Source: Sipunculus nudus (lineage: Eukaryota > Annelida > Sipuncula > Golfingiida > Sipunculidae). Taken from it: a stretch of DNA of 64,000 bases. The DNA is taken from the NCBI GenBank assembly GCA_026874595.1, contig CM049311.1, positions 75,270,953 to 75,334,952 of the forward strand, read 5' to 3'. Position numbers and translations under genes: made by a program. The notes beneath the pieces were generated by a model, which made no database searches, was not told the origin of the DNA, and worked only from the letters and a program-made list of their open reading frames with translations. How positions within the stretch are numbered: the stretch's first letter is position 1; every line of letters begins with the position of its first letter. Shown piece by piece: positions 3,526 to 64,000 of the stretch.

Positions 3526-4701
3526 TAGCTCATCTGAATGAAAATCAACAGAGGCATTGAAATGGCGCCTTGTGAATCGTCCGTCCGGCTGTTCGTCTGT
3601 CCGTTAAGAGGGCACAAATCGTAACCGCTAGCCTTAGAAACTTGTAACTGAATAGCCAGATAGGTTGATAAAAAATCTCTTGGGGAAACCTGAAATTAGG
3701 TCACTGCGACCTATATCCTCCGAGCTATGGGGCTGGTAAAGACCCCCCCCCCCGAATAATTAAAAATTGGATACAAAACCTTCAGTTCCTTGATAATTAA
3801 TGCATGGATGCCATGAATCTTGCCTTGAATATTGACCATGGCTATTTTTGTCAGTTCCCGAAAATTGGTGGCACCCCCTGTATTTTATTCTAATTTTTAC
3901 GATTTTTTTTCTGTTTTTTAGACCATCAAATGACAGCAGTTATGTCAGTTGCTCAGCTGTAGGGCCTTCCATCGTCCTGCAACCCAGTGTCTTTATTGCT
4001 TATCATTGGTTTCTTCAGTTCCCGAAGACTGGTGGCGCTACCTGTATTTTCCCTATTTTTGATGCATTGTTTCCCCTTTGTTTTGAGACTGCCAAATTAT
4101 ATTAATACTATCAGATACGCAACTGATGTTTCATCTTTGTCCTGAATTTTAAGCCAAATTTTTCATTCTAAACCTTCCATCTTTCGCTAATAGCTCACCT
4201 GCCAATAGGGGACGAAATTGATTGATTTTTGGGTCACAAGATCAAAGGTCTAGTTCACAGGGGCCATCTATCCATATATTTGTTTCTGGATGATAACTCC
4301 AGTTTGGAATGACATATTTGTTTCAATCTTGACTTATATATGACCCCTCAATATTTTAAGAACTCCTTTGATTTTTGGGTCATGAGGTGAAAGGTCAAGG
4401 TCACAGGACCCACTACTTTAGAAAGGTTGTAGATGCATTTTAAGCCAAACTTTTCCTTGCAAACCTTCTGTCTTCCAAATGTGACCCACCTGCCAATAAG
4501 GAAAGTTTCCTTTTGATTTTGGGGTCACTCGGTCAAAGCTCACAGGGCCCAACCATTCACAAATTAGTTTATAGATGATAACTCAAGTTTGGGTAGACAG
4601 GTTGGCTTCAAACTGATCACAGGACCCATATTTTGAAAGCGCTTATAAACATATCCTTATAGACAAATTCAGCTGAGCGTCGAGACCCATGGGTCCCTAG
4701 T
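3526..4701 (-). mobile_element. tandem-core dispersed element, copy A
   Basis: Minus-orientation copy of the family also seen at 12113-13353, 14377-16367 and 53713-54350. It begins (plus strand) with TTTTAGCTCATCTGA and ends with CAGCTGAGCGTCGAGACCC followed by ATGGGTC, so the outer ends are an imperfect inverted repeat of GCTCAGCTG. Next to the left end are GTCCGTCCGGC/GTCTGTCC steps, then the block with 'cctatatcctccgagctatggggc', then a core with repeated AAGGTCAAGGTCACAGG spaced roughly 140-150 bp. No transposase frame is visible, so it is non-autonomous. Resemblance to oyster pearl-type elements is inference from architecture. Confidence 0.7.
3743..3753. repeat. poly-C tract inside element copy A
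   Basis: Eleven C at the same place in the element where the copies at 13117 and 16147 carry G-runs of other lengths. Confidence 0.85.
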
Positions 4702-14376: not shown

Positions 14377-16367
14377 AGGGACCCATGGGTCTCGACGCTC
14401 AGCTGCGTTTGTCTATAAGGATATATGTTTATGAAGTTTTCCAAATATTGGTCCTGAGATCAGTTTGAAGCCAACCTGTCTACCCAAACTGGAGTTATCA
14501 TCCATAAACAAATTGTGAATGGATGGGCCCTGTGACCTTAGGCTTTGACCTTATAACCCCAAAATCAGAAGAAACTTCCCCTATTGGCAGGTGCACCACA
14601 TGTTGATGATGCAAGGATTGAGATGAAAAGTTTGGCTTAAAATGCATCCACAATCTTTCTAAAGTAGTGGGTCCTGTGACCTTGACCTTTGATCTCATGA
14701 CCCCAGAAATAACATTTCTTACTTTAGTGGTGGGCCATATATAAGTCAAGTTTGAAACCAATATTTCAAACCAAACTGGTGTTATCATCTGGAAACTAAA
14801 ATGTTGATTGATGGCCCCCATGACCTTGACCTTGTGACCCCAAAATCCATAAGTTACTTCCACTATTGGCAGGTGAGCAACATCTGGAAGATAGAATGTT
14901 TGGGACAGAAAGTTTTGCAAAAAAATACATCAACAATCTTTTAAAGAAGTAGGTCCTGTAACCTTGACCTTTGGCCTTATGGCCCCAAAATCAAAAGGGT
15001 TCTTACATTATTGGTAGGTCATATATAAGTTAAAATTGAAACCAATATGTCAATCCGAACTGGAGTTATCATCCAGAAACAAATATGTGGACATATGGGC
15101 CCCTGTGACGATGAACTTTGACCTTGTGACCCCCAAATCAATCAGTTTCTTCACATATTGGCAGCTCAGCTATATGTGCAAGATGGAAGGTTTTGGATGA
15201 AAAGTTTGGCTTAAAATGCAACCACAATCTTTCTAAATAAGTGGGTACTGTGACATTGACCTTTGACCTCATGACCCCAAAATTGAACAGAATCTTCCCC
15301 TATTGGCGGGTTAGCAATATCTTGAATATGGAAGGTCTGGGATGAAAAGTTTGGCTTCAAATGCATATGCATTCTTTTTAAAGAAATGAGTCCTGTGACC
15401 ATGACCTTTGACGGTTGGACCCCAAAATCCACACGGTTCTTACTTTAGTGGTGAGTCATATATTAGTTAAGTTTGAAACCAATATGTCAAACTAAACTGG
15501 AGTTATCATCTGGAAACTAATTTGTAAACAGATGGCCCCTGTGACCTTGACCTTTGACCATGTGACCCCAAATTTATTTATGCTCTCCCCATACTGGCAA
15601 GTCAGCTAAATGTGCAAAATGGAAAGTTTGGGATGAAATGCTTGGCATAAAATGCAGCCAAAATCTTTTTTAAAAAGTGGGTCCTGTGACCTTGACCTTT
15701 GGCCTCATGACCAAAAAATCATAGGTTCATAGGTTCTTGCTTTAGTGGTGGGCCATATGTAAGTCAAGTTTGAAATCCATGTGTCAATACAACCTGGAGT
15801 TATCATCTGGAAACAAATTTGTGTGGATGGACAGATGGACAGACGGAGAGACAAACAGACAGACAGACAGACAGGGTGATAACTATATGGCATCCACTTG
15901 TGATCAATAAACACACCAGGTTTTGGGACACTAGAGGTAATTACAGCTGAGAAACTCACATGATGGTTGTCATTTTAAAGTAAAAAAAATGAAAAATAAC
16001 GTTAAAATAACAAAAAATACAGATGGCGCCACCACTTATCGGGAACTGACAAAACTAGTCATGGTCAATATTCAAGGCAAGATTCATGACAATCCATGCA
16101 TTAATTATCAAGATATTAGAGGTTTTGTATTATATTTTTGATTATTCTGGGGGGTACTTTCAAGCCCCATAGCTCGGAGGATATAAGTCGCAGTGACCTA
16201 TTTTCAGGTTTCCAAGGAGATTTTTTATTGACCTCCCTGGATATTCACTTAGAAGTTTCTAGGACCAGCAGTTACGATTTGTGTCCTGCTAACGGACGGC
16301 CGGACGGACGACGGACAAAGCGCCATTCCTATACCTCAGTTGACATACAGTCAGCTGAGCTAAAAAA
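14377..16367 (+). mobile_element. tandem-core dispersed element, copy B (longest)
   Basis: Left end GGGACCCATGGGTCTCGACG then CTCAGCTG; right end CAGTCAGCTGAGCTAAAAA. Between them are about nine core monomers of roughly 145 bp, each with a form of CCTGTGACCTTGACCTTTGA, near 14528, 14674, 14818, 14955, 15102, 15246, 15392, 15537 and 15686. Two monomer types mostly alternate (preceded by 'gatggcccc' or by 'agtgggtcc'), giving a ~290 bp dimer. A (CAGA)n patch lies at about 15850-15876, then a right module shared with copies A and C, ending with GACGGACGACGGACAAAG. Minus-strand frames of 140, 73 and 84 codons are by-products of the core. Non-autonomous; the pearl-type analogy is inference. Confidence 0.75.
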
Positions 16368-18340: not shown

Positions 18341-21300
18341 AATTATCAATGACAGAACCTTCTGTGTTCAACATAATCAACCACGTCAAATGACAGAACC
18401 ATATGTATTCGACATCACCATCAACACCCACTGACAGAAAAATCAGTGTTCAACATCATCAACCAAAATCCAACGAAAAAACTGTCTGTGTTCATCATAG
18501 CCTTCCACATCCATTGACCGAACCGTCTGTGTTCAGCATCACCATCCACAACCAATGACAGAACCATCTGTGTTCAGCATCGCCATCCACATCCAATGAC
18601 AGAACCATCGGGGTTCAACATCACCGTCCACGTCCATTAACAGAATCATCTATGTTTAGCATCACCATCTACATCCAATGACAGAGCCATCTATGTTTAG
18701 CATCACCATCTACATCCAATGACAGAGCCATCTATGTTCAGCATCACCATCCACGTCCAATGACAGAACCATCTGTGTTCAACTTCACCATCCACATCCA
18801 ATGACAGAACCATCTGTGTTCAACAACATCATCCACATCTAATGACGGAACCATCTGTGTTCAGCATCACCATCCACATCCCATGACAGAACCATCTGTG
18901 TTCAACTTCACCATCCACATCCAATGACAGAACCATCTGTGTTCAACATCACCATCGACGTCCAATGATAGAACCATCTGTGTTCAGCATCACCATCCAC
19001 ATCCCATGACAGAACCATCTGTGTTAATCGTCACCATCCACATCCAATGATGACAGAACCATCTGTGTTCAACATCACCATCCACTTCCTATGACAGTAC
19101 CATCTGTATTAATAATCAACACCTTCATCCAGTGACAGAACCATCAATGATCGACATCACCATCCTCATCCAATGACATAACCATCTGTGTACAGCATCA
19201 CGATCCATGTCCAATGACAGAACCATCTGTGTTCGACATCAACATCCACGTCCAATGAAAAAACTATCAATGTTCAACATCACCATCCAAATACAATGAC
19301 AGAACCATCTATGTTTAGCATCACCATCATCGTCCAATGACAGAACCATCTGTGTTCAACATCACCATCCACATCCAATGACAGAACCATCTGTGTTCAA
19401 CATCACCATCCACGTCCAACGAAAGAACCATCAGTGTTCAACATCACCATCCACATCCAATGACAGAACCATCTGTGTTCAACATCACCATCCACGTCCA
19501 ATGACAGAACCATCTGTGTTCAACATCACCATCCACATCCAATGACAGAACCATCTGTGTTCAACATCACCATCCACGTCCAACTAAAGAACCATCTGTG
19601 TTCAACATCACCATCCACATCCAATGACAGAACCATCTGTGTTCAACATCACCATCCACGTCCAACTAAAGAACCATCTGTGTTCAACATCACCATCCAC
19701 GTCCAATGACAGAACCATCTGTGTTCAACATCACCATCCACGTCCAACTAAAGAACCATCTGTGTTCAACATTACCATCCACATCCAATGACAAAACTGT
19801 CTGTGTTTAGCATCACCATCCACATCCACCAACAGAACCATCTGTGTTCAATATCACAATCCACGTCCAATGAAAGAACCATCAGTGTTCAACATCACCA
19901 TCCACGTCCAACGAAAGAACCATCAGTGTTCAACATCACCATCCACGTCCAACGAAAGAACCATCAGTGTTCAACATCACCATCCACGTCCAACGAAAGA
20001 ACCATCAGTGTTCAACATCACCATCCACGTCCAATGAAAGAACCATCTGTGTTCAACATCACCATCCACGTCCAACGAAAGAACCATCAGTGTTCAACAT
20101 CACCATCCACGTCCAATGACAGAACCATCAGTGTTCAACATCACCATCCACGTCCAATGAAAGAACCATCTGTGTTCAACATCACCATCCACGTCCAATG
20201 AAAGAACCATCTGTGTTCAACATCACCATCCACGTCCAACTAAAGAACCATCAGTGTTCAACATCACCATCCACGTCCAACGAAAGAACCATCAGTGTTC
20301 AACATCACCATCCACGTCCAATGAAAGAACCATCTGTGTTCAACATCACCATCCACGTCCAATGAAAGAACCATCTGTGTTCAACATCACCATCCACGTC
20401 CAACGAAAGAACCATCAGTGTTCAACATCACCATCCACGTCCAACGAAAGAACCATCAGTGTTCAACATCACCATCCACGTCCAATGACAGAACCATCTG
20501 TGTTCAACATCACCATCCACGTCCAATGACAGAACCATCTGTGTTCAACATCACCATCCACGTCCAACTAAAGAACCATCAGTGTTCAACATCACCATCC
20601 ACATCCAATGACAGAACCATCTGTGTTCAACATCACCATCCACGTCCAACGAAAGAACCATCAGTGTTCAACATCACCATCCACGTCCAATGAAAGAACC
20701 ATCTGTGTTCAACATTACCATCCACGTCCAACGAAAGAACCATCAGTGTTCAACATCACCATCCACGTCCAACGAAAGAACCATCAGTGTTCAACATCAC
20801 CATCCACGTCCAACGAAAGAACCATCAGTGTTCAACATCACCATCCACGTCCAATGACAGAACCATCTGTGTTCAACATCACCATCCACGTCCAATGAAA
20901 GAACCATCTGTGTTCAACATCACCATCCACGTCCAATGAAAGAACCATCTGTGTTCAACATCACCATCCACATTCATTGACAGAACCATCTGTGTTCAAC
21001 ATCACCATCCACGTCCAACGAAAGAACCATCAGTGTTCAACATCACCATCCACGTCAAACGAAAGAACCATCAGTGTTCAACATCACCATCCACATCCAA
21101 TGACAGAACAATCTGTGTTCAACATCACCATCCACGTCCAACGAAAGAACCATCAGTGTTCAACATCACCATCCACATCCAATGACAGAACCATCTGTGT
21201 TCAACATCACCATCCACGTCCAACGAAAGAACCATCAGTGTTCAACATCACCATCCACGTCCAACTAAAGAACCATCTGTGTTCAACATCACCATCCACG

Positions 21301-21939
21301 TCCAATGAAAGAACCATCTGTGTTCAACATCACCATCCACATCCAATGACAGAACCATCTGTGTTCAACATCACCATCCACGTCCAATGACAGAACCATC
21401 TGTGTTCAACATCACCATCCACGTCCAATGAAAGAACCGTCTGTGTTCAACATCACCATCCACGTCCAATGAAAGAACCATCTGTGTTCAACATCACCAT
21501 CCACGTTCAATGACAGAACCATCTGTGTTCAACATCACCATCCACGTCCAATGAAAGAACCATCTGTGTTCAACATCACCATCCACGTCCAATGACAGAA
21601 CCATCTGTGTTCAGCATCACCATCCACATCCAATGACAGAACCATCTGTGTTCAACATCACCATCCACGTCCAATGAAAGAACCATCTGTGTTCAACATC
21701 ACCATCCACGTCCAATGAAAGAACCATCTGTGTTCAACATAACCATCCACGTCCAATGACAGAACCATCTGTGTTCAACATCACCATCCACATCCAATGA
21801 CAGAACCATCTGTGTTCAACATCACCATCGACGTCCAATGAAAGAACCATCTGTGTTCAACATCACCATCCACATCCAATGACAGAACCATCTGTGTTCA
21901 GCATCGCCATCCACGTCCAATGAAAGAACCATCTGTGTT

Positions 21940-23010
21940 CAACATCACCATCCACGTCCAATGACAGAACCATCTGTGTTCAACATCACCATCCACATCC
22001 AATGACAGAACCATCTGTGTTCAACATCACCATCGACGTCCAATGAAAGAACCATCTGTGTTCAACATCACCATCCACATCCAATGACAGAACCATCTGT
22101 GTTCAGCATCGCCATCCACGTCCAATGAAAGAACCATCTGTGTTCAACATCACCATCCACATCCAATGACAGAACCATCTGTGTTCAGCATCGCCATCCA
22201 CGTCCAATGACAGAACAATCTGTGTTCAACATCACCATCCACGTCCAATGAAAGAACCATCTGTGTTCAACATCACCATCCACATCCAATGACAGAACCA
22301 TCTGTGTTCAGCATCGCCATCCACGTCCAATGAAAGAACCATCTGTGTTCAACATCACCATCCACGTCCAATGACAGAACCATCTGTGTTCAACATCACC
22401 ATCCACGTCCAATGAAAGAACCATCTGTGTTCAACATCACCATCCACATCCAATGACAGAACCATCTGTGTTCAACATCACCATCCACATCCAATGACAG
22501 AACCATCTGTGTTCAACATCACCATCCACGTCCAATGACAGAACCATCTGTGTTCAACATCACCATCCACGTCCAATGACAGAACCATCTGTGTTCAACA
22601 TCACCATCCACATCCAATGACAGAACCATCTGTGTTCAACATCACCATCGACGTCCAATGAAAGAACCATCTGTGTTCAACATCACCATCCACATCCAAT
22701 GACAGAACCATCTGTGTTCAGCATCGCCATCCACGTCCAATGAAAGAACCATCTGTGTTCAACATCACCATCCACATCCAATGACAGAACCATCTGTGTT
22801 CAGCATCGCCATCCACGTCCAATGACAGAACCATCTGTGTTCAACATCACCATCCACGTCCAATGAAAGAACCATCTGTGTTCAACATCACCATCCACAT
22901 CCAATGACAGAACCATCTGTGTTCAGCATCGCCATCCACGTCCAATGAAAGAACCATCTGTGTTCAACATCACCATCCACGTCCAATGACAGAACCATCT
23001 GTGTTCAACA
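21940..23010 (+). repeat. higher-order duplication within the 41-bp array
   Basis: The order of variant units from about 21940 to 22395 is repeated about 615 bp (15 units) later, from about 22555 to 23010. The rare GACGTCC unit at 22026 and 22641, and the CAGCATCGCC units at 22108, 22190 and 22313, recur at exact +615 offsets. One visible difference in the compared part is AACAATC against AACCATC near 22216. Confidence 0.8.
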
Positions 23011-23533
23011 TCACCATCGACGTCCAACGAAAGAACCATCTGTGTTCAACATCACCATCCACGTCCAATGACAGAACCATCTGTGTTCAACATCACCATC
23101 CACATCCAATGACAGAACCATCAGTGTTCAACATCACCATCGACGTCCAATGAAAGAACCATCAGTGTTCAACATCACCATCCACGTCCAATGAAAGAAC
23201 CGTCTGTGTTCAACATCACCATCCACATCCAATGACAGAACCATCTGTGTTCAACATCACCATCCACATCCAATGACAGAACCATCTGTGTTCAGCATCG
23301 CCATCCACGTCCAATGAAAGAACCATCTGTGTTCAACATCACCATCCACGTCCAATGAAAGAACCATCTGTGTTCAACATCACCATCCACGTCCAATGAC
23401 AGAACCATCTGTGTTCAACATCACCATCCACATCCAATGACAGAACCATCTGTGTTCAGCATCACCATCCACGTCCAATGAAAGAACCATCTGTGTTAAT
23501 CATCACCATCTACATTCAGTGACAGAACCATCA

Positions 23534-39300: not shown

Positions 39301-41800
39301 AAATGTGTGTACAAATATTTTAAAGCATAAAAATAACTTGAGGATTACACTGTCATATGTTATCTGATATGGTTATCAAAAACAAATACACCTAATGAAA
39401 TTGATGCTCGTGATCTCTGATTATATTGCTGATTCTCTTATAGTATAGTACTACATGGTCTAGATGCCTAACATATAACAACAAAATTAACATTTAGAAT
39501 CCATTTGTGTGGTTATATGGAAGATATTCCAAGATTCCAAAAGCCCTGTTGGTGGTCTTGATACAGAAATATTCTTGTCATATTAAACTATTCCAAGTAC
39601 CTTGTAGAACAGGGGGATCGGTAGCAACCGTTGTCTGGACATTTTATATTGCTATATAGTTTATCTGAATATGAGCTGAAACAGGTCTAATTGTTACAAG
39701 TTATATAGATAAGGTACTTCTAAAAGGTAAAAAGAGACAAATAATGCACACAAAAAACTAATCAGCCATATTTGATTAGCAGAAAAGAAGACTCATCTGC
39801 TTATGTAAAATGGCATATGAGTACGCATTATTCCTAAAGGAAAGTTTGCACATTACGGAAATACAAATATATCTACTGAAAATTGTTGGATAAAACGGAC
39901 CATGCAGATCCGGACATCAAGGCTAACATCACGGATGGAATCTTTTTCTCATATATTTTTTGTGTGGAGGTAGCCGCTTCCATTTTTTAATCCAAACATA
40001 ACTACATATATGTACATCTGCAGATTTCGATCCCGGTTTCGGTCTACATGACAGGGCAGTATCACACACTTCCTCTCATTTCGCGGATCCCCCGAAAGGC
40101 GCACTCGTGAATGAAACACGGCCGGTGGGCACGCCCTTCTTATTCCACTGCCCATCTCAATATTATTCGAATCTTTCTAAGCGTATCTTATAACCATTTA
40201 CTGTGGCATTCTAGTTTTCCTTTGTACGCGCATCTTCTGGTCGATGCAGACTTGAAAGTATAGTTAATTATATTATAATCCTTAGTATATAGTTTTATCT
40301 AAATCTTCAGGTGCTTGGTTCCGATTGTCCGACATTAACCTACGGGGTTCTTAGGTACATGTTTTTGAAATCGCCAGATGCCATTTACATGTACACACTT
40401 AAACTTTTTTAACGGACCACATCAGTATAACTCTGTGCACGTGCAGATGTGTTGTCTTCTTCTGTCAGGGAAGAATATTTTTGTTTTCCTGCTAATCTTT
40501 TAGTGACAATTACAATAATAACTGACCTACTCACGCCTATATTCAGACAAAGCCAAAAGATATTCAGACAAAGGTTTCTAATACTACTCGAAGTGATTTC
40601 AAAGTAGTAATTGATTTTAAAATGGTTGTTTCAACAATATTGTTGACGATAAATACTAAGCAGCAGAGAATCAGCAATATGTAAAATATGTATATACGTA
40701 CATCAATTTCATGTTTTAAAGGGGCCCAATCACCTATCTGAATTTTAAAGACTAAACGTAGTCCCTTGGAGATTTCATTCAAGATAGGCCAGAAAACGTT
40801 GATATCACGCACACAGGCTGCTTGTTTTGTTTATATTAACGTGTTTATAATATATGGGGGCCCGCCAAAATAAAACAAATTCAACAATGGCATGGGACAG
40901 CAAGTCGGATAGGCGAGAGTTTTGCAAATGGCGTTTTGCAGCAAATAACCTTTTGTGCCTCTGCATATACGCCACATGTCATGTTAGGTTACATTTTCCC
41001 CCTATTTTCAACATTGCTGGGTTAACAAACATATTTTGGTCCACAAGTTCATATAACCTTCACGGAGGTATTATATGAATCAGAAATCAGAATTACCTTT
41101 AGATCATTAACATATACAAAGAGAAGCCAGAAATCACACTTTCAGAAAGGTATTTGAATGGGTACCATGTGACATGTAGTATCTTAGTGTAATGTTTTTT
41201 TATACACACAGCCTCTCACACAGGGAAACAAAAACCTGGGAGCTGATTTATCATTTATTCAGGTAAATTCAGATGGATCCACTTGACCTTTTACACACAG
41301 GTTATTGGATAATTACTCTTAGGGACGTTAAGGAAGGCGTTTGATTGGCTATTACATTTGTACATGATAGATCACTTAATTACCTTATATATGGGTAATT
41401 GGGTATTATACATATGACCAATCACATGTGGAACACGGCTGCTTATACTATATAACTAACTACCGACAACATTATTGTATCTTCCTACATATCTAGCAAG
41501 GAAAAATACACTGTGGGAGAGGCTTGTCTATAAAGTGTTTAAAGTACACTGCTGTACTTGAAACCTATTTTTTAATGTCGTCCCTGTGATATTATTCTGG
41601 CAAGGAAATTATTAATACTGCAGACTTTTTGAAAACCATATTACAATATATATGACAGCGTAGAACTATAAAGATGTCTAATATTATTTTTAAGATCGAA
41701 GGTTGGTAAATATTTTTGACCTTGACCTTGAATACCCTCCTCAACCTTTGGTCAGTTCCTGGAGTAGTTGGTATTACCAGTACACATTCAAAATCTTATA
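39301..41800. other. unannotated intergenic DNA
   Basis: No gene recognised. Frames of 68-82 codons at 39949-40155, 40564-40812 and 40854-41078 have no domain. GACCTTGACCTTGAA occurs at about 41718-41732. Confidence 0.4.
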
Positions 41801-42229
41801 AATTGATCAAATATTATTCATTTTGATGCGATGGTTACAATATCAAAGCAATATCTAGGCTTTTTTATTGTGATGGCGGCCATCTTGGATTTTTGGGGGG
41901 TTGATAAAATTTGTTACCTAATTTTTTCCATCAACTTACACCTAAATGAAGTGAAAACAAGAGCTATCTCAATTTGGTCATTCATGTCGTATACAGGATT
42001 GGGATTTAGCTAAATTAAATTGATCAAATATTATTCATTTTGATGCGATGGTTACAATATCAAAGCAATATCTAGGTTTTTTATTATGATGGCGGCCATC
42101 TTGGATTTTTCGGGGGTTGATAAAATTTGTTACCTAATTTTTTCCATCAACTTACACCTAAATGAAGTGAAAACAAGTGATATCTCAATTTGGTCATTCA
42201 TGTCGTATACAGGATTGGGATTTAGCTAC
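41801..42229 (-). repeat. 217-bp tandem duplication of the ATGGCCGCC repeat
   Basis: AATTGATCAAATATTATTCA starts at 41801 and again at 42018. The two units are almost identical through GGGATTTAGCTA. Each contains ATGGCGGCCATCTTGG and the reverse complement of the block at 38755-38820. A 60-codon frame in unit 1 is not maintained in unit 2. Confidence 0.92.
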
Positions 42230-54350: not shown

Positions 54351-55713
54351 CTCCTGTAAATACATTTGATTTCATTTTCACAGCAGGTAGTCGTTGTACG
54401 TTATATGTTTATAACAACATATACCGGCTAGACCAAAGAGGTATTGCGTGATCTGTATACATAAAGCCCCATAGTGATGTATCAGCAGGAATGTCCCCAC
54501 GGCACTGACAATTATACTGACCAGGTCAAAGGGGAGGGGTTTAATGAGAAGTCCTGATCTACAGATGCCAGACTTCAATGAAGGAGATGAGAGCCGCGGT
54601 GCCTTCAAGTTGCCGAGTATTCTATATAGGTAGTCAATAAATGCATGGATCACTTTTGTGGCTGGTGGGAGCATCATGAAAATATTATCCGTGGGCAGTT
54701 TTATTGTCTGCTAGACATTTTTCATTAATCTTTGCAGCGGGGAATATAATCAAATTAAACATTAACATATATAGTGATTTTTTTTAGAAATTTAAGGCCA
54801 GCCGAGATATACTTTTGACAAGGGTTGCTTTCGGTGATAGTACCAGGTATATGCATATCTATATCTTTTACAATTATCTGATTTCAGATATAAAAGATCG
54901 CAATTTGTTATATTTATATATATATGCACTCCTTGGCCGGCGAATACGCTGTACCCCAGGCACCCCCCCCCCCCCCCACCCCCACTTCCGTAAATCATTG
55001 CGACACCCAAGCTCACGAATAGGTCATACACTGCAGTCGACCCATGCAAACATCGTTTCGTGTAACCGGTGCTTGGTATGCATAGTTCTCTGGATTGGAA
55101 CACCAGGGTGCGCACAGAATTATAATGAGTGCACTTACTGATAAAGTGGTATTGCGACACCCGCTTTCGTTGGTCTGATAACACTCGTTCCTGCAGTGGT
55201 TGAAAAAATCAGACCAATGAATGTAGTTAACGCAGACCCTTTGCATGAAGATCGCTCCTGTGGCGAATTTCACGCACATATACACACGTATATACGCACA
55301 TACACGTAAACGCTGAACAAAAAAAAAAACAAAGAATGCCCAATGTTAAAAATAATATGAGCGACTTTTCACGCACATATGCATAGATGTGTTATATGCA
55401 TAATCACAGCTTATTGTGGTTTCACATGCAAAGTGATGAAGCAAGCTTATTAAACAAAATATCAATTATATTATTAAGTATAATGAAACTAAAAAAAATA
55501 TAGGAGGATATGAAAGGACTTGGTAATAATAGTGAAAGTTTATTATTTTCCATAGCATGAAGAGCAAAGCATCTGCAGCCCACGCAAGAAGAAGATCAAG
55601 GCTGATAAAAAAAAAAAAACAAAAACAAAAAAAAAATTGGGTTCTACTGTCTCCATGCAGTTTGTCGCCACCGTACAAAACCATGCATGTCAGCGGTCGT
55701 GGTGCAGGGGGTT
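54351..55713. other. unannotated intergenic DNA
   Basis: Poly-C at 54961-54985 (C-runs with one A). Frames of 90-130 codons on both strands at 54378-55285 span or flank that tract and have no recognisable domain. A-rich tracts near 55608-55635. Confidence 0.4.
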
Positions 55714-56914
55714 TTAGTGGGTGAGTTAAGTGCATAAAATAGGCTGTTGACTTCATTTCATGATGCAAAGGTCCCCTTTGGCATAAAAGTACCTTAGGGT
55801 CATAGGATTAAATTTATCCAAAGACACAAGTTAGATCTCCCTTAGTATGTGAAATATATGCAAATTATTCAAAATGGCCGCCGAAAATACTCAAAACCCC
55901 ATATGCTTGCTGCTGTTACAGCTATAATGACAAATGTTGTGTCAAAATATACATTTTCTTGGTCAAGGAATCCAATGAAATAGGTTTCCAGATTGAGAAA
56001 ACAATAGTTTTCTCCTTAACATGAAAATCTGGGGTAAAATGGGCACATTTCATAAAATATCAATGATTTTCTTCCATCAGGGTAACCTGAGACACTTGAG
56101 ACATCTATGTCCTTGGCATTTGGGAGGTATTAAACAGTTGTGAATAGACCATGAAGACGCGTCTAACTGAACACAATCCTCAGTCGACATACATAGAGCA
56201 TGAAACCACAGGAAATTTAAAGCATTAACTAGAGAATTACTGGTACGTGGCACTTACTTAATCTGAGTTTAGGCAGTACAGTAAGACCATGGTATTACAA
56301 GGACAGATATACAGTTTTTTTTTCTTTTTTTTTAAGAATCACCCAATGAAATACCCACATTCTTGCTCTATCATCCGATCAAATACCCACACTAGATGCT
56401 CTATTACTAGCAAATATACATAAGGCCTTGGTTGTGTTTTTTCTGCATGTACTGTTATTTAATTTATATACATTATCTGGGTAATACGGCATAAAATGAC
56501 CTTTCTCGAAAGTACAGCATGCATGAGATATATATAAAATCAGAGTACCAGTACACACAGGAATGGGTAGACATTCCTGTAGGAGAACACAATAAAGTTG
56601 CCAATTGTGGTTCCTTACCAGAATCTAAAATTTTGATTCGACAGAATATATTGCTTGAAATACATCTTATCTATCTCATAATCTATCTCATGATGGCAAA
56701 CCCATAATAGTAAATGATCAATGCTGAAAACTAAAAAGCCATCATTTCTTGACATTCTTGGTGTTTATGCTTCGCCAATTAGTTTAGGGTATATAGTGAA
56801 ATATCCTAAAAACTTTTTTTCACATTTCTATTTGTTTACAAGTAATGTTAGGGAACTGAAGGAATTAGATGTCTTATATTTTAGTTGTTGGTGAAATGAT
56901 TGTTGAAGTAATGG
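55714..56914 (+). repeat. left arm of the inverted repeat
   Basis: Pairs with 59353-60534. Best conserved between about 55760 and 56440. Contains a small internal hairpin (GAGAAAAC / GTTTTCTC near 55996-56015) and AAAATGGCCGCCGAAAA near 55871. Beyond about 56500 the arms diverge more. The frame open in the right arm at 59591-59920 is stopped here. Confidence 0.85.
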
Positions 56915-57071
56915 TGGCAGTGCTGATTGTTCAGGATGTGGTGCAGGTTATATCAATGAATCCAGTATTGTTCACAAAAACTGCAATAATGCCACCGATC
57001 ATCAGCATGTTAATGATGCAATAATAAACTTGCAACCGAAGTATAAGCACAGCAAGAAGGCGAGATGCTAA
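56907..57071 (+). other. 54-codon protein-like frame at the inner edge of the left arm
   Basis: Open from 56907 (after TGA) to TAA 57069-57071, without an ATG. It reads NGGSADCSGCGAGYINES... with three cysteines early and a Lys-rich end (KYKHSKKARC). The composition is unlike the surrounding AT-rich noise, and an acceptor-like TTATATTTTAG lies just upstream near 56874-56884. It could be an exon remnant captured in the element. Not recognised. Confidence 0.2.
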
Positions 57072-57218
57072 GTCCGCCTAACAGACTTTACCTCTCACTT
57101 CCGTGCTATATAACCTTTTACACTAGTCATAACAGAAAAGCAGAAAGTGTTGAATGTAATGTCTTAATGTAATTCAATAAAGTTTAGAATTTGATAAATT
57201 GTAACTTTATCACTTTAC

Positions 57219-57542
57219 ATGGACCCAGAGAAACTACTGACCTGGAAAGGGTCACTGTCATCTATTCTCATAGCTTTCCCGGGAATTGAAACTGGATATA
57301 GCCAGCACAGAGATCAAAGTCTATTACCACTCGACTCAGTGATTAGCTCTTTATTTAAACATTCCGTCCAAAGACATTTCTTTCCTTTGCCTAAAATCAG
57401 CTATAATCTTTGGGCAAAAGGATCTCAAATGTACTCACTGTGGATCCAGTCACCTCTTGGTCCACATATGTTCCTTGTGTCCAATGTCCATGGGGAAGAA
57501 AATAATTTTCTTCTCAGTAAGAACCAAATTGAAGTGGTATAG
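57219..57542 (+). CDS. hypothetical 107-aa ORF in the element interior
   Basis: Begins with ATGG at 57219 and ends with TAG at 57540-57542. A TATA-like CTATATAA lies near 57105, about 110 bp upstream, and AATAAAG at about 57176. The product starts MDPEKLLTWKGSLSS and ends FLLSKNQIEVV. It is rich in Ser, Leu and aromatic residues, has no clear membrane segment and no domain I recognise. On the opposite strand the same DNA is also open for about 40 codons and looks equally protein-like, so strand and reality are uncertain. It may be a small element gene or a remnant of captured host sequence. Confidence 0.3.
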   Translation: MDPEKLLTWKGSLSSILIAFPGIETGYSQHRDQSLLPLDSVISSLFKHSVQRHFFPLPKISYNLWAKGSQMYSLWIQSPLGPHMFLVSNVHGEENNFLLSKNQIEVV

Positions 57543-58311
57543 AAAATTGGTAGTGTCCTTTGTCATATAAAGAGATTAAGACACTAATTTACTTACATCA
57601 TGCAATGAAAATACATCTTAAACCTAGAAATGCACAAGTCGCGGTAATGCATAAGTGAGAATAATATGTCATTTAACCTTAACAATACCCCGAACAGACC
57701 TAGGAAATTAAGTTATCAGTACCTGAGAGTATACAAGTGTCAGGGCTTACACCAAGAAAATAACCCTTTTAGATCCATCAGTGGAAAACAAATTTTTTAG
57801 GGTTGTAAAGCTGACCATTTGTCAATGATTCTCCAAAGTGAGGTAATCTCTGATGAACTTATTTAGCAAATCCCATTCAGTCATGTCGCACCAGCAGCTT
57901 TATGTTACGATGTATAACCCTTTCAGGCATGGGCCACGTTGATAAACAGCAGCAGCCTCTTCAGCAAATTCTCTCACATTTCCAATCAAACAAATAATCT
58001 GTTTTTTTTCTTCAGAAAAAAACTAATTCTTGCTCATAATAATTTAATAAAATGTGTATGTTATACTTTTACAGTTGGTCACAACTAACCTGAAAAGGGG
58101 GCTCAAACTGCTTTGACGTCAGCAAGACACGCCACAAATGTCACTTAAAATTCGAAGGGCCTATAACATAAACAGTACTGGACATTTTATTTAACCTATG
58201 AAGCAAGATATAGGTTTTCTTTAATTTATGCTGTGGTACCACCATGTGATAATTCCTATGCACACAATTCATTAGTTTTAATTGAAGTGCAATGCTCCTA
58301 AGTTTTCAGGG

Positions 58312-58814
58312 TCACCTGCCGATATTCTGCAGATGAATTTGGCAAGTAGGGCCATACCAGGTCACATTTGGGTTTTTAGGGAGATTTCTAAGATTGTAAT
58401 AAATGTTGTGCTTACTCGTTAGAATTTCAACGGATATCAGGCGGCTATTAAGTTCATTATAAATATTAATAAACACCAAAGTCCAGGAAGCACTCCAATC
58501 TGAAAGATAGATGTTTGAGGATTTGGCTTCAGAAGTATACACACATTCTCAAATGCAGTTTGACTAGATCTGTAAACAAGCGATGTTTGGCCAAGTTTAT
58601 CAACTTGTGACTGTCCAGTGACAACTCTGATAGTATAGTACTGACTTTCTGGGCATAAGGAACTTTGACTAATGTGATTCGTGCAATGGACTTCACTATC
58701 CAGAATGCTAGATTCTGGGAAATAGGTGCTTCCATTTTTATCAAATGCACATCTTAAATAGATTATGTGATGATTATATCGGACAAGACCTGAAAGTTGT
58801 ACATTGAAGCTCAA
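58312..58814 (-). pseudogene. possible decayed plexin-type IPT/PSI fragment
   Basis: The frame 58814-58437 (125 codons, opening from TTG, with an acceptor-like CCAACAAAAG upstream on the minus strand) carries an extracellular-domain pattern: YLRCAF at residues 19-24, VHC at 42-44, VVTGQSQVD at 64-72, Y81, C92, and a final WC. This order resembles plexins between an IPT domain and the next PSI domain (YxCxF, VxC, VxxGxxxVD, C-rich segment, WC). Several expected cysteines are missing, and the continuation lies in another frame (58542-58312, ending IHLQNIGR), suggesting a frameshift. The resemblance is from memory of the family and unverified. The fragment is too short to function as a receptor. 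Confidence 0.25.
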
Positions 58815-59352
58815 GCAGACGATAATCTTTTGTTGGCAATACAGAAATTCTCATGTCCACTTTGTACAGCTGCCAATACCTCTGTGTACTCCGTCTGTGA
58901 CAGAGTGAAACCTATGTAAGCCGTGCAAAACGTATGATTTAAGGGGTATTAAAGAGATATTGTATTCCAGAACATGGCAGTAAATTTGAAAACTTACGGA
59001 AGCAAGACTATGGAAGTGTGTTCTTACGTTCAATTAAATTATATCTGATCATAAGCATAATTATATGTTATTCGAATAGCATGCAGCTTAATTATTTCTC
59101 CACGTAATACAAATATGTTTATCACTTTGTTGTGGTTTTATGCAGTCTGTATGCAGTGAATCGCACACATCGGGTACATATACACTGGTATTAAATGCTC
59201 CCCTGTCTATATAAGGATAATAAACAAGAACTTATAAAGGAATATAATACAAAACCAATCAAATATATTAAAAGTTTTCATGATGATACTAAAATTTATT
59301 GAAGTTTGCAATCTTTCCCCATAATTTCAAGGTAGGATGAATACTTTTACTT

Positions 59353-60534
59353 CATTACTTCAACAATCATTTCATCCACAATGCAACATAACACATCTAA
59401 ATCCTTCAGTTACCTGACGTTACTTGTGAAAATAGAAATACGAACACAACTTTCAGGATACGTGTATTTCCCTATAAAACCCAATAACTAACTGGAGAAG
59501 CATAAAAACCAAGAGTGTCAATGACTGACGGCTTTTTGTGCTTTTGGTATTGATCAACTATTAAGGGTTAACCATCATGAGATAGATAATATGTGTCTCA
59601 AACAAAATATTCTGTTGAATCAAAATATTAGATACTGGGAAGAAACTACAGTTGGCAACATTATTGAGTTTTGTTACAGGAATGTCTTCCCATTCCTGTG
59701 TGTACTGGTACTCTGCTTTTGCCAAGTAAATCCCATGCATGTTGTGTGGTCCAGAAGGGTCAGTTTATGCCGTATTACCCAGATAATGTATATAAATGAA
59801 ATAACAGTACATGCGGAAAAACCACAACCAAGGCCTTATGTATATTTGCTAGTAATAGAGCATCGTGTGTGGGTATTTGATCGGGTGATAGAGCAAGAAT
59901 GTGGGTATTTCATTGGGTGATTCTTAAAAAAAAAGAAAAAAAAACTGTATATCTGTCCTTGTAATACCATGGTCTTGCTGTACTGCCTAAACTCAGATTA
60001 AGTAAGTGCCACGTACCAGTAATTCTCTAGTTAATGCTTTAAATTTCCTGTGGTTTCATGCTCTATGTATGTCGACTGAGGATTGTGTTCGGTAAGACGC
60101 ATCTTCATGGTCTATTCACAACTGTTTAATACCTCCCAAATGCCAAGGACATAGATGTCTCAAGTGTCTCAGGTTACCCTGATGGAAGAAAATCATTGAT
60201 ATTTTATGAAATGTGCCCATTTTACCCCAGATTTTCATGTTAAGGAGAAAACTATTGTTTTCTCAATCTGGAAACCTATTTCATTGGATTCCTTGACCAA
60301 GAAAATGTATATTTTGACACAAAATTTGTCATTATAGCTGTAACAGCAGCAAGCATATGGGGTTTGGAGTATTTTCGGCGGCCATTTTTAATAATTTGCA
60401 TATATTTCACATACTAAGGGAGATCTTACTTGTGTCTTTGGATAAATTTATTCCTATGACTTTAAGGTACTTTTGTGCCAAAGGGGACTTTTGCATCATG
60501 AAATGAAGTCAAAAGTCACTTAACCCACCTACTA
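59353..60534 (-). repeat. right arm of the inverted repeat
   Basis: Reverse complement of the left arm. Contains a 109-codon frame at 59591-59920 that is interrupted in the left arm, so it is probably not a conserved gene. Ends with CACTTAACCCACCTAC followed by TA. Confidence 0.85.
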
Positions 60535-60630
60535 TTTATCTGATTGGCTTAAAAAAAATACAATTGTCGTTCTAGATGGTATAGGCGTTATCTTTTATAT
60601 TATTTTACATCCTTTTATATTTAAATTTTT

Positions 60631-61105: not shown

Positions 61106-64000
61106 CTGAACGTTCCACATGTAACCATTACTATAGTCTGAACGTTCCTTGTGTAATATCATACCTTTTCTGAACGTTCGTTGTGTAATACCATTACTAT
61201 ATAATCTAAACGTCCTTATTTTTAATATGATTACTTGTCTGGAAGTTCGCTATGTAATACCATAACTTATCATTACTAGTCTGAAAGTTCGTTGTGTAAT
61301 ATCATTACTATTCTTAACTTTCGTTGTGTAATATCATTTCTATAGTCTCAACGTTCGTTATTTAAAATCGTTTCTAGTCTGAAAATTCGATATATAATAT
61401 CATTACTAGTAAGAACGTTTCCAACCTGAACGTTTCTTTGTGTAATATCATTACTAATCTGGAGGTTCGTTATGTTATATTATTACTTGTCTGAACGTTC
61501 TTTGTGTAATATCAGTACTAGTAAGAACGTTGAATTTGTAATATAATTTCCAATCTGAACGTTCGTTGTGTGATATCATTTATTAACTGGAGGTTCGTTA
61601 TGTAACATCGTTACTAGTCTAAATGTTCGTTGTGTAATATCATTACTAGTCTGAACGTTCGTTGTTTAATATAATTTCCAATATGAACTTTCGAAGTGTA
61701 ATATCTGAACTTTCTGGAGGTTCGTTATGCTATATCTTTACTAGTCTAAATGTTCGTTATGTAATATCATTACTGGTCTAAACGTTCGTTGTGTAATATC
61801 ATAACTGGTATGTACGTTTGTTGTGTAATATAATTTCCAGTCTGAGCGTTCTTTGTGTAAAATCATAACTTATCTGGAGGTTCGTTATGTAATATCATTA
61901 CTAGACTGAACGTTCGTTTTGTAATATCATTAATGGTCTGAATGTTCGTTGTGTAATAACATAACTAGTCTGGACGTTCGTTGTGTAATATAATTTCCAG
62001 TATGAGCGTTCGTTATACAATATCATTCCTTATCTTGAGGTTCGTTATGTATTATCATCACTAGTAGGAATTGTCGTTGTGTAATATCATTTCTAGTCTG
62101 AAAGTTCGTTGTATAATATAATTTCCAATATGCACGTTCCTTGTGTAATATCATTACTAATATGGAGGTTCGTTATGTAATATCATTACTGGTCTGAACG
62201 TTCTTTGTGTATAATCATAACTAATCTGGAGGTTCGTTATGTAACAACATTACTAGACTGAACATTCGTTATGTAATATCATATATGGTCTGAAAGTTCG
62301 TTGTGTAATATCATATAACTAGTCTGGATGTTCGTTAATTGTGTAATATCATTATTTATCTTGAGGTTCGTTATGTCATATCATTACTATAGTCTGGACG
62401 TTAGTTATGTTATATCATAACTAGTATGAACGTTCAGTGTGTCATATCATTACTAGTCTGAACGTTCCGTGTGTAATATCAATGTTAGTCTGGACGTTCG
62501 TTATACGTTATATTATTAGTCTGAACGTTTGTTTTGTAATACTATATTAAATGTATGAAGGTTCCTTAATATGATGTTATACAATGTTGTGTGATAAAAA
62601 AATGGGTGGTCGTCTTATAGCCGGGCTGGTTGACATTTTGCTGTTTATTCAATTGTATATATTGTTCCTGTCGTGGTTCATGTTCATGAACGTTCCTTGC
62701 GTAATCATAATATGTCTGGACGTTCGTTGTGTAATATCATTTCTATATTGTCTGAACGTTCTTAGGTTATATGATTACTGGACGTTCGCTATGGAATACC
62801 ATAAAAAATCATTACTAATCTGAACGTTCGTTGTGTAAAATCATTACTAGTCTGAACATTCATTATGTAATATCATTACCAGTCTTTACTTTTGTTTTGT
62901 AATATAATTTCCAATCTGAACGTTCGTTGTGTAATATCATTTCTAGTCAGAAAGTTCGATATTTAATATCATTACTAGTAAGAATGATCGATATTTAATA
63001 CCAGAACTAGTAAGAACGTTGAATTATTAATATAATTTCCAATCTGAACGTTCGTTTTGAAATATCATTACTAATAAAAGAGCTTCATTTTGTTATATCA
63101 TAACTATAGTCTGAACGTTTGTTGTGTAATATCATTTCTAATAAGAACTTAGAATTTGTAATATAATTTCAAACCTGAAACATTCTTTGTGTAATATCAT
63201 TACTAGTTTGAACGTTCGTTGTGTAATATAATTTCCAATCTGAACGTTCGAAGTGTAATATCATTACATATATTGAGGTTCGTTATGTTATATCATCACT
63301 AGTATGATCGTTCATTGTGTTATATAATTTCCAGTCTGAACGTTCCTTGTGTAACATCATTACTAATATGGAGGTTCGTTATGTAATATCATTACTAGAC
63401 TTAACGTTCATTATTTAATATCATTAATGGTCTGAACGTTCGTTGTGTAATATCATAACTAGTCTGGATGTTCGTTGTGTAATATCATTTTGAGTCTGAG
63501 CGTTCGTTGTGCAATATCATTATTTATCTTGAGGTTCGCTATGTCATATCATTACTATAGTCTGGACGTTAGTTATGTTATATCATAACTAGTCTGAACG
63601 TTCAGTGTGTAATATCATTACTAGACTGAACGTTCAGTGAGTAATATTATTACTAGTCTGGACGTTCAGTGCGTAATATCATTACTAGTCTGGACGTTCA
63701 GTGTGTAATATCATTACTAGTCTGGACGTTCAGTGTGTAATATCATTACCTGTCTGGACGTTCAGTGTGTAATATCATTACCTGTCTGGACGTTCAGTGT
63801 GTAATATCATTACCAGTCTGGACGTTCAGTGTGTAATATCATTACCAGTCTGGACGTTCAGTGTGTAATATCATTTCCAGTCTGGACGTTCAGTGTGTAA
63901 TATCATTAGCAGTCTGGACGTTCAGTGTGTAATATCATTAGCAGTCTGGACGTTCAGTGTGTAATATCATTAGCAGTCTGGACGTTCAGTGTGTAATATC
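61106..64000 (+). repeat. 32-bp minisatellite array, continues past the window
   Basis: Unit of the form TCTGAACGTTCGTTGTGTAA followed by TATCATTACTAG, 32 bp. About 90 copies are visible. From 61106 to about 63590 copies are diverged and mostly carry CGTTCGTTGTG or GGTTCGTTATG. From about 63590 to the edge they carry CGTTCAGTGTG and are almost identical. AACGTT in most units is self-complementary. No coding meaning. Confidence 0.97.
62571..62690 (+). repeat. captured flank segment within the 32-bp array
   Basis: A block unlike the 32-bp unit, matching 60631-60745, sits inside the array. An 79-codon frame starting at 62584 spans it and array units, and is not supported as a gene. Confidence 0.85.

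Follow-up and report, generated by a model that had tools for sequence, protein, structure and literature searches.

A long-armed repeat of Sipunculus nudus as a very probable non-autonomous, cut-and-paste DNA transposon

What kind of unit sets two arms of about 1.2 kb, each the reverse complement of the other, around an interior of 2.4 kb, and what might move such a unit, are the questions raised by a locus in a 64,000-nucleotide stretch of the genome of the annelid Sipunculus nudus (G000:C6:75270953-75334952, hereafter the window). The arrangement itself was proposed in a first-pass annotation of the letters and is borne out both by alignment, in which 1,082 of 1,212 columns are identical between positions 55715-56913 and 60534-59353 with a longest exact run of 221 bp, and by BLAST, which gives 89.9% identity over 1,182 and turns up no second copy of the element in the window. 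The ungapped core of the arms is 789 nt at 96%, the pair is the longest inverted repeat in the window, and the ends of the element read TAGTRGGTGRGTTAAG. Of the boundaries proposed for it, the right one (60534) is kept and the left one shifts by a single base, from 55714 to 55715. The element is very probably a non-autonomous terminal-inverted-repeat DNA transposon that moves by cut and paste, and its family is probably a new one of a well-known kind.

The evidence that carries this conclusion lies in the other copies. Searches of the 1.43 Gb genome with the left arm and with the interior separately, as the first-pass annotation had recommended, returned many copies with the same ends. With the best 40 of 284 candidates scored, the left arm gave 41 matches, of which 33 are complete or almost complete left arms at 95-100%, the window copy among them, and the others 2 partial left arms, 5 right arms at 89-90% and 1 fragment; with the best 40 of 130 scored, the interior gave 39 full-length matches and 1 partial match. 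From the candidate counts the family can be estimated at roughly 130 copies. The 20 best-scoring left-arm places besides the window copy were fetched, making a set of 21, and in these similarity stops at a left terminus TAGTGGGTGAGTTAAGTG and a right terminus CACTTAACCCACCTACTA, beyond which the copies have different flanks. For each terminus 19 of the 20 match without change, one-base differences occurring in L033 and L039. Fifteen of the 20 align over their full length as a single block at 94.5-96.9%, three (L026, L035 and L036) align in two blocks, and two (L024 and L039) have part of the right side absent. Pairwise distances among the 21 copies run from 0.5 to 6.7% with a median of 2.8%, values that suggest recent movement of the family. 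L026 and L035 form a sub-type in which element positions 1771-2347 (about 576 bp) are swapped for about 330 bp of other sequence.

The termini can also be followed on their own. The 18-base end motif TAGTRGGTGRGTTAAGTG occurs exactly 163 times in the genome (80 forward, 83 reverse), and its reversed control 0 times; in the window alone, 2 matches with up to 3 mismatches against 1.46 expected are not significant, so it is the genome-wide count that carries the weight. Positions were listed for 100 of the 163, and all pairing and position comparisons rest on these: 74 make 37 convergent pairs and 26 are unpaired, and the lengths of the listed pairs are 4,127-4,925 bp in 34 of 37, the other three being 5,224, 6,059 and 28,355 bp. 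The suggestion that the element captures host DNA finds no support in a comparison with these positions, since all 22 of the interior matches that could be checked (those on C1-C8 and the listed part of C9, compared by eye) lie inside copies with at least one listed end; the remaining 18 of the 40 are on contigs without listed ends. The 6,059 bp pair (L043) has a TTC duplication and a 301-bp tandem expansion inside the element, and represents an older relative, about 86% identical in the interior, with no frame above 124 aa. The 28,355 bp pair was considered as an autonomous element and rejected, being a family copy with a nested insertion, of which about 11 kb of some 23.5 kb was read. In that copy (G000:C6:50688557-50716911; L044-L049), which has a TAA duplication, the insertion splits the left arm, the junctions carry a duplicate of about 11 bp of arm, and the inserted DNA contains many units of about 74 bp.

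Insertion has left a short and near-constant trace. Among 42 end pairs, made up of all 37 listed convergent pairs and 5 fetched copies without both ends listed, 36 are flanked by 3-bp and 4 by 4-bp target duplications, 1 lies in poly-G, where the duplication is at least 3 bp and ambiguous and reads 6, and 1 has none. The duplication of the window copy is TTT, and among the 21 copies of the first set 15 have T as the middle base of the target. The TA that the first-pass annotation saw as flank on both sides belongs to the element's own TAG...CTA end; TA is consequently rejected as the target duplication, and the proposed check for a single TA at empty sites fails with it, the duplication being 3-4 bp. 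Comparison of joined flanks with the loci in hand gave empty sites with one target copy for 3 of the 21 insertions (L028, L035 and L039). The empty version of L028 was found in L038 (324 query bases at 93.5%), that of L035 in its own flank and in L039, and that of L039 in L035, the last two sites showing a few mismatches close to the junction. Inverted ends that are constant among dispersed copies, duplications that are clear in 40 of 42 end pairs with one poly-G case besides, and empty sites are together the properties of a terminal-inverted-repeat transposon, and the early suggestion of a DNA transposon family without a recognisable transposase is upheld by them.

Table 1. Parts of the element and its flanks, in positions of the window.
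Feature	Positions	Strand	Remarks
Whole element	55715-60534		4,820 bp in length; 2.4 kb interior between inverted arms that are 90% identical and about 1.2 kb each
Left target-site duplication TTT	55712..55714	.	Same as 60535-60537; 40 of 42 end pairs have matching 3-4 bp here, or 41 if the poly-G pair is counted
Left terminus TAGTGGGTGAGTTAAGTG	55715..55732	+	Similarity stops here in 20 of 20 fetched copies
Left arm, inverted repeat of about 1.2 kb	55715..56913	+	Arm alignment and genome matches
Homogenised zone of left arm, about 97-99% identical to right arm	55815..56464	+	Boundaries approximate
Interior, 2,439 bp, common to copies, no coding signature	56914..59352	.	Genome matches
Right arm	59353..60534	-	Arm alignment
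Right-arm counterpart of homogenised zone	59795..60444	-	Boundaries approximate
Right terminus TAGTAGGTGGGTTAAGTG	60517..60534	-	Identical in 19 of 20 fetched copies; L039 one base off
Right target-site duplication TTT	60535..60537	.	Matches left flank

That the element is non-autonomous is supported by the lack of a recognisable transposase gene in the copies, in which the longest frame of any of the 21 is 141 aa and no frame compared has a Pfam match over the cut-off. Ten frames of the window were compared with Pfam, giving two weak matches (E 0.052 and 0.039), and four frames from other copies gave none. The interior had been described as protein-like, a description that its 137-aa frame does not sustain: when each copy is scored by its best open frame, only 7 of 21 keep 80% or more of this frame open (20 keep half or more), its variable sites fall 31/23/25 at codon positions 1/2/3, and it has no Pfam family, no relative in viral contigs by tblastn and none among PDB sequences. 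Its length is long for shuffled sequence, being reached in 5 of 300 shuffles of the interior, and that of the 131-aa right-arm frame in 9 of 300 shuffles of the right arm. Scored in the same way, the 131-aa frame stays open over 80% or more of its length in 7 copies and over half or more in 19, with variable sites at 17/29/17, and a 114-aa frame does so in 1 and 17 copies respectively, with 23/19/29; the latter, the least conserved, is the only one of five frames with a maximum at the third position. Many copies have arm frames of 107-141 aa, which in the window lie on the minus strand of the left arm at about 56342-56764 and on the plus strand of the right arm at 59525-59917; their codon-position signal is mixed. 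The 141-aa frame of L040 has variable sites at 33/16/30. The 130-aa left-arm frame treated below has few changes at position 2, but its right-arm mirror shows the opposite, with most changes there (17/29/17 to 17/29/19). A reading of the copies as non-coding is thus supported, not proved, by the lack of a Pfam match, the lack of a general third-codon excess and the limited openness across copies. Further comparisons were equally empty: 1,101 bases of the left arm matched no phage record, Rfam and ARAGORN scans of the window found nothing, and a terminus pattern seen in 14 IMG/VR contigs was set aside as chance, BLAST of the element there giving short matches only (best E 0.043).

Several observations weigh against the interpretation of the family as non-autonomous cut-and-paste elements. 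The three empty sites are paralogous repeats, not alleles. The search that had been advised for a longer relative with a transposase between the same ends produced none, and no autonomous relative with these ends was found among the 100 listed of the 163 end motifs; of the three pairs of unusual length, the 5,224 bp unit was read at its ends only. Further, a 130-aa version of the left-arm frame, from L028, remains open over 80% or more of its length in 14 of 21 copies and over half or more in 20, and its variable sites (29/16/28) show fewer changes at codon position 2. These last figures, together with the recurrence of the arm frames and the fact that in 13 of 21 copies no frame is longer than the left-arm one, would be expected of a self-contained element whose small or spliced gene had gone unrecognised. 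This is nonetheless improbable, given that no frame compared has a Pfam match, that the two arms differ in their codon-position counts, which are not in general highest at third positions, and that copies about 3% apart would share much of this openness through common descent.

The shape of the element invites other explanations, of which the simplest is that there is no element at all but a host inverted duplication, or two unrelated repeats lying head to head. A single copy on its own would be compatible with that explanation, but it is refuted by dispersed copies with the same ends, the same interior and matching duplications, and by the empty sites. Long inverted ends are typical of Polinton/Maverick elements, and a deleted member would share them. 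That origin is scarcely credible here, because Polinton duplications are 6 bp (PMC10045372), and only the poly-G pair of 42 reads 6. A foldback element related to Mutator, with the arms driving movement, would account for inverted arms of 1.2 kb and for conversion between them, and the published Tetris element resembles the present one in its long inverted arms, lack of conserved frames, unfound partner and possible homogenisation of arm repeats (PMC4079207). The foldback type, raised already in the first-pass annotation, holds for the shape and fails in the particulars: Tetris has 8-10 bp duplications, arm repeats of 220 bp and three structurally complete copies (PMC4079207), whereas the duplications here are 3-4 bp, no direct repeats of 25 bp or more were found inside an arm, copies number in the dozens, and element length is nearly uniform among the listed pairs. 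A foldback origin is accordingly very unlikely, if slightly less so than the two preceding ones.

If the element is, as we hold, a non-autonomous transposon, a transposase made elsewhere in the genome would recognise its ends (TAGTRGGTGRGTTAAGTG), and the 4.8 kb unit would be cut out and inserted at T-rich, otherwise little-selected sites, with a stagger of 3 bp (sometimes 4 bp) giving rise to the target duplication after repair. Action in trans is probable because no transposase was recognised in the copies read, and both it and the cut-and-paste chemistry are inferred. The long arms may now and then copy from each other, by gene conversion or by template switching in gap repair. It is unlikely, and still a better prospect than the explanations weighed above, that an undescribed transposase lineage requires the 1.2 kb arms in full as its substrate and maintains their likeness through conversion between them; such a requirement, if true, would explain why 34 of the 37 listed pairs measure 4.1-4.9 kb and none is shorter.

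As to which transposase acts, the AcademX lineage is tentatively the most likely source, on the length of the duplications and the abundance of Academ in bivalves. AcademX duplications are 3 or 4 bp (PMC10045372), as are those found here (36 and 4 of 42), and among molluscs Academ is nearly exclusive to bivalves and amplified there (PMC10294476). Zator too, though rare there, is named as bivalve-restricted among molluscs in the same source (PMC10294476), which detracts from the argument, as does the host, bivalve being the word of the first-pass annotation and the DNA that of an annelid. The likeness to AcademX is one of duplication length, and in the copies read no transposase or nuclease was recognised. 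XPG_I, which we take to be the nuclease domain of AcademX, gave 5 matches from 11 candidates in the genome, none of them at a listed copy, and these may be host repair genes.

A somewhat less probable but serious alternative is that the element depends on another superfamily with 3-bp duplications, whether PIF/Harbinger or its relatives, Zator or CACTA. CACTA elements make duplications of 2-3 bp. Relatives of Harbinger make duplications of 0-4 bp and Zator of 3 bp (PMC10045372), and plant PIF/Harbinger elements likewise make 3 bp (PMC2213677). However, Harbinger proper targets TTA/TAA (PMC2213677), which account for 3 of 36 of the 3-bp duplications here, and the plant elements have inverted ends of 14-25 bp (PMC2213677) as against mixed targets and arms of 1.2 kb. 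The 3-bp duplication agrees with Zator, although 4 of 42 are 4 bp. The ISAzo13/Zator-type transposase model (PF07592) has a sole match in the genome, L090 (G000:C7:75738369-75738902), with a 261-aa open frame; the surrounding 9.5 kb contain no arms and no end at up to 2 mismatches (the best has 3), which counts against this locus as the partner. CACTA itself is disfavoured by the ends, which start TAGTR and not with the CACTA of that group's inverted ends (PMC1636069), and Tc1/mariner by its TA duplication (PMC10045372), which differs from the 3-4 bp found here. Concerning the novelty of the family, no published description was found in the titles and opening lines of abstracts on long-armed or Academ families, which is weak evidence, and none of five end strings occurs in the text of 5.39 million papers, which is weak likewise, such strings being seldom printed.

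The arms carry a history of their own. With gaps counted, left-right identity is 0.82-0.86 in the outer 100 bp, 0.92-0.99 at 101-400, 0.94-0.98 at 401-750 and 0.73-0.81 beyond, and the same profile is present in all 19 copies with both arms (L024 and L039, whose right arms are deleted, were set aside). A single profile in all 19 would have been inherited from the ancestor of the family, and conversion in each copy separately is rejected as its cause. The window copy was also compared with the older relative L043, with gaps excluded. At 701-1200 each arm is closest to its own counterpart (0.890 and 0.891, as against 0.825 and 0.846 crosswise), while at 101-700 the window's arms are 0.977-0.987 alike but only 0.85-0.93 like either arm of L043, whose own arms are 0.92 and 0.89 alike. 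The pattern bears the mark of arm-to-arm gene conversion after the two lineages split, and judged from these alignments the arms exchanged sequence by gene conversion in the family's ancestor. A separate case is the copy at C2:92365715-92370494 (L058, L059, L088 and L089), which has right-type ends on both sides and no target duplication. Here a run of 159 bases, 95 of element as fetched and 64 of flank, repeats the other side exactly in inverted orientation, and the duplication is missing because the left end is an inverted copy of the right one. This is likely a single event of template switching between the arms during repair, though it may be an assembly error.

The family thus offers a clean record, in its ends, target length and empty sites, of what appears to be a recently spreading long-armed DNA transposon, as well as a readable record of arm gene conversion, including one probable case of the transfer of an end, with 64 bp of its flank, to the opposite end. 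General knowledge of transposons is unchanged by it; what the family offers is a probe for the enzyme responsible for its movement.

The window also contains repeats of other kinds. Shortly after the element a degenerate tandem array of 32/64/96-bp units begins and runs to the end of the window (61426-64000), and at 18347-23532 about 126 copies of a 41-bp unit form an array whose strands differ strongly in composition (GC skew about -0.45). A tandem pair of 216-bp units, 97% identical and with the core GATGGCGGCCATCTTGGA, lies at 41799-42228. Related repeats in inverted orientation, rich in GACCTTTGACCTT and with units of about 145/292 bp, occupy 4142-4542 and 14462-15822, and sequence similar to them is held in the flanks of one copy of the family, L037.

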